In this document: positions 410 through 4,842 of the stretch, one piece after another
How positions within the stretch are numbered: position 1 is the stretch's first letter
Layout: each line of letters starts with the position of its first letter
Virus record (IMG/VR): IMGVR_UViG_3300046533_000334
Coordinates: 1-31,057 of that record
Length of the DNA: 31,057 bases
Reading direction: 5' to 3' (one strand)
Origin: a virus
Notes under the pieces: generated by a model
The model's input: the letters and a program-made list of their open reading frames with translations, nothing else
Told to the model about the DNA's origin: nothing
The model's database searches: none
Made by a program: the position numbers and the translations under genes

Positions 410-854
410 ACGGCAGCCGACGGTCCTCCGGTTGATGCGCGGTAATCCGGGCAAGCGCCGGATCAACCATCAGGAGCCGCGCCCGGGCCCGCTCGCGGCT
501 GACTGCCCGCCGGAACTGACCGACCCCGTCGCCCGCGCCGAGTGGGATCGCGTCGCGCCGGGCTTGGTCAGTAGTGGCCAGGTCACGACGGTCGATCGCG
601 CGATGCTGATCGGCTATTGCCAGAAGTGGGCGCAGTGGCAAGCGATCGAGACGGCGGCGTCGGCGCATCCCTTCATCGTCAAAGGGCCGGATGGCCGCCC
701 GATCCCGAATCCCGCCCTCGGGCTCGCGTTCAAGGCGTACAACCTGCTGCTCCGGTCGGCGGCCGAACTCGGGATGACGCCGAGCGCTCGGTCGCGCGTC
801 ATGGTCGCGACCGCGGAGGCCGCCCCGGTCAGCAAATGGGTCGGGCTCAAGTGA
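396..854 (+). CDS. terS: Terminase small subunit, P27 family
   Basis: 152 aa. The N-terminus PGPRRQPTVLRLMRGNPGK, the following proline-rich stretch and the body (PVARAEWDRVAPGL, then a helical region and a C-terminal RSAAELGMTPSARSR motif) are characteristic of P27-type small terminases. The protein recognises phage DNA at the packaging site and feeds it to the large subunit. The length is normal. The ATG at 396 sits inside the tail of the upstream relic, and the gene overlaps the next start by GTGA. An HNH gene at the far right end of the window would be its upstream neighbour on a circular map, the usual HNH-terS-terL order of cos-type phages. Function is from family recognition. Confidence 0.9.
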   Translation: MPGPRRQPTVLRLMRGNPGKRRINHQEPRPGPLAADCPPELTDPVARAEWDRVAPGLVSSGQVTTVDRAMLIGYCQKWAQWQAIETAASAHPFIVKGPDGRPIPNPALGLAFKAYNLLLRSAAELGMTPSARSRVMVATAEAAPVSKWVGLK

Positions 855-1753
855 AGCGCACGATCGGGAGTGATCGAGCCGTCGCGATTATCAACCGGTT
901 GACGCATACCAAAGGCCCGTTTGCCGGGCAGTCGTTCCGCCTCCGACCCTGGCAAGAGCGCGACATCGTACGGCCCCTCTTCGCCACGGATCGGACGGGA
1001 CGGCGGCGCTATCGGTCGTGCCTCCTGATGATGCCGCGCAAGAACGGCAAGACCGAACTGGCCGCGGCGTTCGCCATTCAAGGCTTGCTGTTCGATGGGG
1101 AACTCGGCGGCGAAATCTACTCGGCGGCGGCCGACAAGGACCAGGCCGCGCTCGTGTTCCACGTCGCCGCGCAGATGATCCGCAACGATCCCGAACTCGA
1201 GGCCGACGTCGAGATCATCGACTCGCAAAAGCGCATCGTGCACCGGGCGAGCGGCAGCTTCTATCGCGCGATTTCGGCCGAGGCCTATTCGAAGCACGGG
1301 TTCAACGCCTCGCGGGTCATCTACGACGAGCTGCACGCCGCCCCGTCCCGGGAACTCTACGACGTGCTGACGACGTCGATGGGCGCGCGGGCGCAGCCGC
1401 TTCTGATTGCGATCAGTACCGCCGGCTACGACCGTCACTCGATTCTGTGGGAACTCTACGCCCACGCCCAGAAGGTGCACGAGCAGCCGGCGCTCGATCC
1501 CACGTTTCTGCCCATCCTCTACGAGGCCCCCGTGGAGGCCGATTGGACCGACGAGCGCGTGTGGCACGCCGCGAATCCCGCCCTCGGTGATTTCCGCAGC
1601 CTCGAGGAGATGCGGATCATGGCGGCCCGCGCCAAAGAGATTCCGGCGCAGGAGAACACCTTCCGGCGGCTGTATTTGAACCAATGGACCGAGCAGGCAT
1701 CACGGTGGATCTCGCTCGCGAGCTGGGATGCCTGCTGTGTGGTGACGGCATGA
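851..1753 (+). CDS. terL: Terminase large subunit, N-terminal ATPase half (split gene)
   Basis: 300 aa from a GTG that overlaps the terS stop (GTGA). Walker A is PRKNGKTE at about residues 63-69 and Walker B is VIYDE at about 156-160, followed by the coupling motif region (TTSMGARAQPLLIAIST). The protein ends with LNQWTEQASRWISLASWDAC, the conserved hinge that normally leads straight into the nuclease domain of HK97-like terminases (Terminase_1 family). Here translation stops at 1753 and the nuclease is encoded separately from 2052. This half would power DNA translocation at the portal. Nothing of the ATPase domain appears missing; only the covalent link is broken. A start further upstream in the same frame would run through terS and is unlikely. 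Confidence 0.9.
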   Translation: MKRTIGSDRAVAIINRLTHTKGPFAGQSFRLRPWQERDIVRPLFATDRTGRRRYRSCLLMMPRKNGKTELAAAFAIQGLLFDGELGGEIYSAAADKDQAALVFHVAAQMIRNDPELEADVEIIDSQKRIVHRASGSFYRAISAEAYSKHGFNASRVIYDELHAAPSRELYDVLTTSMGARAQPLLIAISTAGYDRHSILWELYAHAQKVHEQPALDPTFLPILYEAPVEADWTDERVWHAANPALGDFRSLEEMRIMAARAKEIPAQENTFRRLYLNQWTEQASRWISLASWDACCVVTA

Positions 1754-2055
1754 AGCAAACCTTCAAATCGTCAGTTGATGTGGCACGGTTCAAGTGCGTG
1801 AACGAAGCAGGAGACGATCTGATTTTTCAATGCGACACAGTGCGCGGTGATATTCGCGTGCTGGCGTATTTCGTCCCTGAAAATTTAGAAAAGATGCTGC
1901 TGGCGTTTGATAAGCCCCACGTCATGGGCGTCATTTGTGAAACACGGTTACTCGTTCAAGTGCGAGAGATGATCGCGTTTGGCTGTCCCTTGGATCAGAT
2001 GCGCGCGACGTTACAAGCCGCCCTGGCTCTCGTGGATGACGCGATGAAGCCATGA
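1750..2055 (+). CDS. Unknown 101-aa protein inserted between the terminase halves
   Basis: The ATG at 1750 overlaps the stop of the ATPase half (ATGA) and the stop at 2055 overlaps the start of the nuclease half (ATGA), so the three genes are translationally coupled. I do not recognise the family. The N-terminal half looks like beta strands (VARFKCVNEAGDDLIFQC, then IRVLAYFVPENL), and the C-terminal half is helical (LVQVREMIAFGCPLDQMR, then a terminal helix ending VDDAMKP). There is no signal peptide, membrane segment or nuclease motif, and it is not a homing endonuclease or intein. The DNA is visibly less GC-rich than both flanks, suggesting separate origin. It could help assemble the split motor or simply be a hitch-hiking gene. 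Confidence 0.75.
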   Translation: MKQTFKSSVDVARFKCVNEAGDDLIFQCDTVRGDIRVLAYFVPENLEKMLLAFDKPHVMGVICETRLLVQVREMIAFGCPLDQMRATLQAALALVDDAMKP

Positions 2056-2705
2056 CCCGCACCGAATATCGGGCGCGGCTCGGCGGCCGCCGCTGTTACG
2101 TCGGGATGGACCTCAGCTCGACGAAGGATCTCACCGCGATCGTCGCCGTGTTTCCCGACGACGAGGGGCCGGGCTTCGACGTGCTCGCGCAGTTTTTCGT
2201 CCCTGCCGAGAACATGGCCGAGCGCGTGCGCCGGGACCGCGTGCCCTATGACCAGTGGGCGCGCGAGGGGTGGCTGGTCCCGACGCCTGGCAACGTCGTG
2301 GATTACGACTACGTGCGTCAGGCCCTGCGCGCGTGGGGGACGGAATTCGAAATTCGCGAGATTGCGTACGATCCGTGGAACGCGATCGGGCTCGTGATTC
2401 CCTTGCAGGATCAGGACGGGTTTACGTGCGTCGAGCTGCGGCAAGGCTTTGCGACATTGTCGTCGCCCACCAAATCGCTCGAGACGGCGATTCTCTCGCG
2501 GACCCTTCGGCATGACGGGCATCCGGTGCTGCGCTGGAACATTTCGAATATCGCCGTCGAAACCGACGCGACGGGAAACCTGAAGCTCTCGAAGAAAGTC
2601 TCGACGGAACGGATCGACGGGGCGAGCGCGCTTGTGAATGCCTTGCATCGTCGCGATCACATGGCCGCGGGCCCGCCGGCCTACCAGATGGTGGTGTTTG
2701 GGTGA
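2052..2705 (+). CDS. terL: Terminase large subunit, C-terminal nuclease half (split gene)
   Basis: 217 aa. It begins almost exactly where the nuclease domain of an intact large terminase starts. The RNase H-like acidic residues are present: Asp20 in YVGMDLSSTKDLTA, Asp107 in IAYDPWNA, and Asp189 in STERIDGASALVNALHR. It would cut concatemeric DNA at the start and end of packaging. The only start is coupled by ATGA to the inserted gene, with no good Shine-Dalgarno sequence, so its synthesis probably depends on translation of that gene. The reading frame differs from the ATPase half, so removing the insert exactly between the two ATGs would not restore a fusion. Function is firm from motifs; two-chain assembly is inferred. 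Confidence 0.9.
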   Translation: MTRTEYRARLGGRRCYVGMDLSSTKDLTAIVAVFPDDEGPGFDVLAQFFVPAENMAERVRRDRVPYDQWAREGWLVPTPGNVVDYDYVRQALRAWGTEFEIREIAYDPWNAIGLVIPLQDQDGFTCVELRQGFATLSSPTKSLETAILSRTLRHDGHPVLRWNISNIAVETDATGNLKLSKKVSTERIDGASALVNALHRRDHMAAGPPAYQMVVFG

Positions 2706-2952: not shown

Positions 2953-4842
2953 GTGGATCGCGCCTACTCGCTCCTGACGATCAAGGCCCTCGACGTCGAG
3001 CAGCGGACCATTACCGGCCTCGCCTCGACGCCCGAACCCGATCGCATGGGCGACATCGTCGAACCCCTCGGCATCACCTACAAGAATCCGCTGCCGCTGC
3101 TGCTCTACCACGACACGAAGAAGCCGGTGGGCGCGGTGACGTTCAAGACGCCGACCCTCACGGGCCTGGAATTCGAGGCCACGCTGCCGACGGTCACCGA
3201 GCCCGGGGCTCTGCGCGACCGCATCGAAGAAGCGTGGCAATCGATCAAGGCCGGGCTGCTGGCCGGCGTCTCGATTGGGTTTCGTGCGCTTGAGGACAGC
3301 TATAACAAAACGACGGGCGGCACGCGCTTTCTGAAGACGGAGATCCTCGAACTCTCGCTCGTGTCGATTCCGGCCAATGCCGGCGCGACGATTCACACGA
3401 TCAAATCGCTCGACCTGGCCGCGCCTGGCCTCCATCCGTCCCGCGACAGGGACACCCTCCCGATCGTGCGCGTCAACAAGGACGCGCGTCCCATGGAACA
3501 GAAAACCATCAACGAACAGATTGCCAGCTTCGAGAACAGCCGCGCCGCGAAACACGCCCGGATGACGGCCATCATGACCAAGTCGGCCGAGGCCGGCGCG
3601 ACGCTCGACCAGGCCGAGACCGACGAATACGACGGCCTGGCCGGCGAGCTGAAGGCGGTCGACGCCCATCTGGTGCGCTTGCGCGCGCTCGAGGCGACCA
3701 CGATTGCCAAGGCGACCCCGATCACGGCGGGCACGTCCGAGGAGGCCAGCGCGCAGCGGAGCGGCGTGCCGATCATCTCGGTCAAGAGCAACGTCATTCC
3801 GGGCACGGCGTTCATCCGCTACTGCCAGGCGCTCGCGGTCTCGAAGGGCTCGACCATGCAGGCCGTCGAGTATGCCAAGCGCTGGCATGATTCGACGCCG
3901 GAAGTCGAACTGGTGTTGAAGGCCGCCGTCGCCGCCGGCACGACGACGGACGCGACCTGGGCGGGCCCGCTCGCGCCCATCACGCCGCTGACCTCGGAGT
4001 TTCTCGCGTATCTGCGGCCGGCGACGATCCTCGGCCGCATTCCCGGCCTCGTGAAGGTGCCCTTTAACGTCTCGGTCGCCGCGCAGACCGGCGGCGGGAC
4101 GTATCAGTGGGTCGGCCAGGGGGCGCCGAAGCCGGTCGGCAAGCTCGCGTTTGCGACGGTGACGCTCGGCATCACCAAGGCCGCCGGCATCATCGTGATC
4201 ACCGAGGAACTCGCGCGGACCTCGACGCCGTCGGCTGAGGAAGTCATCCGGCGCGACATGGTCAACGGGATCGCGGCGTTCTTGGATACGGAGTTCATCG
4301 ATCCGAGCAAAGCCGCGGTGGCGGGCGTCTCGCCGGGTTCGGTCACGAACGGCGTGACGCCGATCACGACCGCCGGGACGTCGCCGGCTAATGCGCGCAC
4401 TGACGTCCAGGCGCTCGCGAACGCGATGATCGCGCTCGGCATCTCGACGTCCGGCGCCGTCCTCGTGCTGTCGGAGACCAACGCCGCCGCGTTCACCAAC
4501 GCGCTGAATCCGCTGGGGCAGCCGCTGTTTCCGGGCGCGACGCCGATGGGCGGCACGATCATGGGCTACACCGCGGTGGCCTCGCAGGCCGCGGGCACGA
4601 CCGTCGCGCTGTTGCAGCCCAACAGCATCCTCTACGCCGATGACGGCGGCGTGACCATCGACGTCTCGCGTGAGGCGTCCTTGCAGATGGATACAGCGCT
4701 CGACAATCCGCCGCTCGCGACGACGCTCTTGACGTCGCTGTGGCAGATGAACCTGGTCGGCCTGCGCGCCGAGCGGTTCATCAACTGGAAGAAAGGCCGC
4801 ACCGGCGTCGTGCAATACACGGTCGCGACCTACACCGCGTGA
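2953..4842 (+). CDS. Prohead protease-major capsid protein fusion, HK97 type
   Basis: 629 aa from GTG; a stop lies just upstream in frame and there is no obvious Shine-Dalgarno site. Residues 1-150 are an HK97-family (U35) prohead protease, with candidate catalytic His53 (LLLYHDTKKP) and Ser107 (LLAGVSIGF) and the conserved ILELSLVSIPANAGA. Residues about 181-260 are helical (FENSRAAKHARMTAIM onward), like the scaffolding delta domain. The rest is an HK97-fold capsid protein (GRIPGLVKVPF, ITEELARTSTPS, the C-terminal NWKKGRTG). The enzyme would cleave itself and the delta domain during head maturation. Protease and capsid are usually separate genes, though fusions are known. An ATG at 3493 preceded by AAGGA could also yield a 449-aa capsid-only product. 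Confidence 0.9.
   Translation: MDRAYSLLTIKALDVEQRTITGLASTPEPDRMGDIVEPLGITYKNPLPLLLYHDTKKPVGAVTFKTPTLTGLEFEATLPTVTEPGALRDRIEEAWQSIKAGLLAGVSIGFRALEDSYNKTTGGTRFLKTEILELSLVSIPANAGATIHTIKSLDLAAPGLHPSRDRDTLPIVRVNKDARPMEQKTINEQIASFENSRAAKHARMTAIMTKSAEAGATLDQAETDEYDGLAGELKAVDAHLVRLRALEATTIAKATPITAGTSEEASAQRSGVPIISVKSNVIPGTAFIRYCQALAVSKGSTMQAVEYAKRWHDSTPEVELVLKAAVAAGTTTDATWAGPLAPITPLTSEFLAYLRPATILGRIPGLVKVPFNVSVAAQTGGGTYQWVGQGAPKPVGKLAFATVTLGITKAAGIIVITEELARTSTPSAEEVIRRDMVNGIAAFLDTEFIDPSKAAVAGVSPGSVTNGVTPITTAGTSPANARTDVQALANAMIALGISTSGAVLVLSETNAAAFTNALNPLGQPLFPGATPMGGTIMGYTAVASQAAGTTVALLQPNSILYADDGGVTIDVSREASLQMDTALDNPPLATTLLTSLWQMNLVGLRAERFINWKKGRTGVVQYTVATYTA

Follow-up and report, generated by a model that had tools for sequence, protein, structure and literature searches.

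The large terminase (TerL) of the virus analysed here is encoded by two separate genes, one for the ATPase half and one for the nuclease half, with an unrelated 101-codon ORF lying between them. The stretch of DNA examined, called the window below, comprises the 31,057 nt of IMG/VR record IMGVR_UViG_3300046533_000334, and coordinates given for it are positions in that whole stretch. Since the same split was found at 35 distinct junctions, with and without inserted DNA, the most probable explanation (at roughly 80%) is a terminase made as two translationally coupled chains, with a slot for exchangeable passenger genes at the linker between its domains.

Four genes on the plus strand follow one another at this locus, each joined to the next by a 4-nt overlap (GTGA, ATGA and ATGA, in that order). 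The first, terS (396-854), encodes the small terminase (PF05119, E 2.5e-22), and its stop overlaps the start of TerL-N (851-1753), a 300-aa ATPase half (PF03354, E 2e-27) that most likely begins at GTG 851 and ends in WDACCVVTA-stop. The tail of this gene (1736-1753, TGTGTGGTGACGGCATGA), of a type found in split loci, encodes CVVTA-stop; it contains a GGTGA that resembles an SD sequence, and the next gene starts at its ATGA. There follow the putative passenger ORF (1750-2055, 101 aa) and TerL-C (2052-2705), the 217-aa nuclease half (PF20441, E 3e-35). TerL-C opens with a head (2052-2073, MTRTEYR) that is similar in other split loci and absent from the sister locus L004, where the terminase is fused. 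The whole replaced block spans 1736-2073, and L004 has in its place a 21-nt linker, CGGGATCCTGCGTTCGATCGC.

The domains, their order and their catalytic residues are those of an HK97-type large terminase (PF03354 plus PF20441; chain 6z6d): a P-loop ATPase domain with intact Walker A and B motifs (PRKNGKT, IYDELH), and an RNase H-like nuclease domain with an intact acidic triad (GMDLSS, YDPWN, RIDG), in which D20, D105 and D186 of TerL-C (alignment numbering) are invariant across 13 split relatives. The HK97-type enzyme is a single chain, however, whereas here translation would stop at 1753 and begin again at 2052 in a different frame, giving two polypeptides. PF20441 is matched at profile positions 7-85 in the ATPase half and 89-281 in the nuclease half, so the cut lies inside one otherwise complete TerL and no part of the terminase is missing. 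A fused relative could be aligned to the solved chain 6z6d over nearly its full length, placing the cut between WELC and KWYAGLDLS of 6z6d, in the interdomain linker; this junction region of TerL has been described as flexible (PMC10893049). The sequence-only reading, which had described a TerL split into ATPase and nuclease genes around an inserted gene, thus proved accurate in its coordinates, ATGA overlaps and catalytic motifs. An intein or split intein was also considered and rejected, as the N half continues for only five residues past WDAC, the C half starts some 12 residues ahead of the core of the nuclease, and an intein domain was not found.

Relatives with the same split, which that reading had proposed to look for, were found in IMG/VR. 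A scan that used the nuclease half of the window as seed gave 80 loci, in each of which both halves were then read, and further scans brought the collection to 35 distinct split junctions. Split loci made up 14 of the 70 unique loci from the seeded scan, which, since the later scans targeted split forms, is the sole fair share and holds for close relatives of the window only; among more distant loci in bacterial genomes there were 0 of 79. The cut falls in the ATPase-nuclease linker at every split junction. Past W-D-A-C the ATPase half usually has only a few more residues, C-V-V-x-A-stop being its commonest end. The start of the nuclease half varies little and reads [MV]-T-R-x-[ED]-[YF]-R. At 17 of the 35 junctions there is no insert and the halves overlap by 4 nt; the other 18 carry inserts of 106-1193 nt. 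A start codon for the nuclease half was kept in all (24 ATG, 9 GTG and 1 TTG, with locus L109 scored as ACG and having a GTG two codons upstream that provides the 4-nt overlap). All split relatives are metagenomic contigs, and from the type of dataset that contains them we infer a soil habitat; phage records of the annotated collection reach less than 60% identity at best. In Streptococcus phage PY9 (locus L257, 557-2289) TerL is likewise annotated as two genes, with a break inside the ATPase domain rather than the linker, which ruled it out as a second case of the same split.

Among split-split pairs with finite dS, dN/dS ranged from 0.005 to 0.157 for the ATPase half and from 0.030 to 0.272 for the nuclease half; by this measure purifying selection is acting on both, and the catalytic residues are intact in almost every locus where the sequence reaches them. 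In 11 split records (the window and 10 others of 22-57 kb) the search for a second TerL was negative: there was no further ATPase domain, and every nuclease match fell in one or other part of the split gene. These results, together with the 17 insert-free relatives, give good support to the two-chain terminase put forward in the sequence-only reading. That the terminase is decayed or misassembled is barely credible. Only metagenomic contigs represent it, which is what such a reading could call upon, but the same junction recurs in contigs from many samples, a second contig is identical to the window over the region, and both the preserved catalytic residues and the strong selection speak against it. 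Ahead of the junction start, SD-like pairing was predicted to be stronger in split loci (-4.8 kcal/mol) than at the corresponding place of fused genes (-2.5 kcal/mol), a difference that hinges on the region chosen and was obtained from split sequences related to one another.

A self-splicing intron with an internal ORF would be the simplest way of restoring one TerL. It had been argued that removing the insert from ATG to ATG, 302 nt, leaves the ATPase frame in a stop. This holds, but removal of 310 nt (1745-2054) joins GTG GTG to ACC CGC in frame and leaves a linker of plausible length (CVVTRTEYRARLGG), and therefore frame arithmetic does not by itself exclude an intron. Introns in terL are moreover known from ICP1 (PMC10448857) and the Jug phages (PMC12363816). 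The relatives do exclude it, and so the earlier conclusion stands although its frame argument does not suffice: 17 of them are split at a 4-nt overlap with nothing to splice, and the inserts of the others have no common sequence. Within the window, Rfam gave no match at E up to 5 over 1500-2300 and no ribozyme core was detected, the RNA folding z was only -1.8, and the ORF occupies all but about 8 nt of the segment. Start codons of the nuclease half are also conserved, and we regard splicing as very improbable. Equally so is programmed frameshifting or bypass that would still yield a fused TerL from the split gene. In the split loci without insert the nuclease half is read in the -1 frame with respect to the ATPase half, and this frame is often open upstream; against frameshifting, none of these 17 loci has a slippery heptamer in the last 15 codons, the start codon is retained in all, and inserts of any length and frame are tolerated.

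The insert of the window was confirmed to be without a family and lower in G+C, as had been noted: neither Pfam nor PHROG gave a match, and its GC is 0.52, compared with 0.65 and 0.64 in the TerL halves. GC3 is 0.59 versus 0.82-0.84, and the low values of both suggest a recent arrival. Its only relative among viral contigs was one identical contig; none was found among phage records, and plasmids gave only a chance-level match (E 0.3). AlphaFold prediction without an alignment reached a mean pLDDT of 55, a quality insufficient for searching by fold. Close to the ends of the insert lie the two copies of a 14-nt direct repeat (1743-1756 and 2037-2050, 12 of 14 identical), but other short repeats of this stretch are at least as good. 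The insert has the traits of a moron, namely a foreign gene of deviating composition and sporadic occurrence (only the window and the identical contig), and its ORF leaves zero intergenic space on either side. Most likely, the 101-aa protein is a passenger exploiting a well-expressed late operon.

What occupies the junction elsewhere argues in the same direction. No sequence likeness was detected between inserts, each distinct junction having its own cargo. In 9 of the 18 inserts a single ORF overlaps both halves by exactly 4 nt, where 0.64 would be expected from shuffled inserts in random frame. Six of the 18 are without a long ORF reaching the nuclease start, and coupling through the insert thus cannot be general. 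Scanning of ten cargos gave a 57-aa ORF in locus L246 (1579-1752) that resembles a stretch of phage capsid protein (PF05065, E 2.5e-4, a score that falls short of the family cut-off), as though a capsid gene fragment had been captured, as well as a helix-turn-helix-like stretch in L061, a zinc-ribbon-like stretch in L086 and a match to a PHROG of unknown function in L050. Two pairs of loci have near-identical TerLs with different cargo (L086 and L254, about 89-97% nucleotide identity across the TerL blocks; L027 and L029, about 83-95%), which, at the level of sequence, shows that cargo is replaced faster than the terminase diverges.

These observations bear on two further explanations. According to the first, the 101-aa protein works as a third subunit, bridging the two terminase chains or regulating them, a role as bridge or tether having been suggested in the sequence-only reading. 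Exact coupling on both sides would match its synthesis to theirs. The cargo, however, differs at every distinct junction, is missing in 17 of 35 and is often not a full ORF; nearly the same TerL occurs with other cargo in the two pairs above, and the composition points to recent arrival. Such a role is unlikely for an insert that is optional and changes from junction to junction, and we hold it to be quite improbable for the window. The second, also improbable though somewhat less so, is that the gene was broken by insertion of a homing endonuclease, as with MobE in nrdA of Aeromonas phage Aeh1, the passengers being endonucleases or their remnants. The outcome there is the same, an essential gene in two ORFs around a foreign ORF (PMC2988022), and the largest cargo (397 aa, locus L037) weakly matches the N domain of the GmrSD restriction endonuclease (E 0.006). 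Neither the window insert nor the other ten cargos scanned matched an endonuclease family above the cut-off, though, about half of the split junctions are insert-free, and inserts as short as 37 codons are too small.

The earlier proposal that an insertion caused the split fared no better, as the relatives point to a cargo-free split junction spreading by recombination, with the cargo as an exchangeable passenger. In a tree built from both halves with the junction left out (117 rows), split and fused forms were interleaved, well-supported branches forced at least seven changes of state, and a single split clade was rejected (AU p 4e-81). Both the outgroup and the more distant relatives have fused genes, which makes the split state probably derived. 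Sister pairs of opposite state were the window and L004, L251 and L090, L037 and L044, and L050 and L059. Within the window, 1461-1660 is best matched by the fused L004 and 2091-2190 by fused genes, L004 being first or tied first, whereas the ten best matches to 1724-1753 are all split loci, with 29 of 30 nt identical to L029. The tail at 1736-1753 is common to distant split TerLs. With flanks that match fused genes and a 30-nt tail that matches split genes, the split junction was probably brought into the window by recombination. Locus L055 (1302-3045) has a mosaic terminase, 74% identical to L050 in the ATPase half and 98% in the nuclease half, with the last approximately 50 nt before the junction nearly identical. 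Taken together, the mosaics, the sister pairs and the near-identical TerLs with different cargo suggest that split junctions move by recombination in conserved flanks. A bolder version, in which the linker is an actively mobile cargo site, the split junction being driven by targeted gene conversion into fused terminases and picking up new genes, and the motor being converted repeatedly and reversibly between one and two chains, can be offered only tentatively and is on balance doubtful. The fused TerL linkers of L047 (SVVGSALSVAEFRARLRG) and L107 (HTVDPLDVYRARLLG) resemble a split junction rejoined in frame.

In the preferred reading, that of two coupled chains with a passenger slot, the large terminase would be produced from one operon as an ATPase chain and a nuclease chain, and termination-reinitiation at the ATGA or GTGA overlaps would supply matched amounts of both. 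The chains may then reassemble through the normal interdomain contacts into a packaging motor. The junction would act as a tolerated insertion slot for unrelated short passenger genes, often fitted so as to be coupled to both halves themselves, and homologous recombination within the conserved flanks could transfer it from one terminase to another. Its arrival in the window would be recent, in a terminase that has fused genes as its closest relatives.

Actinophage annotation lists may carry separate names for the ATPase and nuclease domains of TerL. Essential phage enzymes encoded in two ORFs around foreign DNA are known from nrdA of Aeh1, T4 gene 60 with mobA, and gene 43 of phage 25; the nrdA halves were reported to form an active enzyme, and co-purification was reported for 43A and 43B (PMC2988022). 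As in the nrdA/mobE type, both parts of the host gene described here are under selection, with dN/dS far below 1. Unlike that type, the present enzyme is the packaging terminase and is split without a recognised homing endonuclease, the cargo varies by junction, the split persists cargo-free, and it is recurrent and recombining within one lineage. The split DNA polymerase of the OM43 phages MEP401 and MEP402 is likewise divided, across relatives, into two ORFs flanking a small orphan ORF, but this concerns another enzyme in one lineage, and the authors leave an intron possible (PMC10580990). In ICP1 and the Jug phages terL is interrupted too, but by introns with RNA support, whereas insert-free split copies exist here. 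Genes in pieces and terL introns are therefore known in phages; a two-chain terminase or a cargo slot at the TerL linker was not found in the literature searched, a scope that left most subscription papers outside.

If the two domains occur naturally on separate chains in this lineage, the need for a covalent linker becomes directly testable, and the junction would represent a slot for capturing genes within a phage gene that is essential. Phages of this kind may come out of annotation pipelines as TerL-less or TerL-broken.

Three minor features of the surrounding sequence were also observed. At 30-409 of the window, two small ORFs correspond to both ends of a ParB-like/DNA-methyltransferase-like gene (named by eye) whose middle is gone; in L004 it is a single 414-aa ORF (412-1656). 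Downstream of the terminase, a single ORF (2953-4842) combines the prohead protease (PF04586) with the major capsid protein (PF05065), apparently likewise in L004 (3878-5782). Finally, the window and IMGVR_UViG_3300046461_000040 begin at exactly one and the same position, with no difference in the 7052 nt compared, a shared start that is perhaps a physical genome end or a common assembly break.
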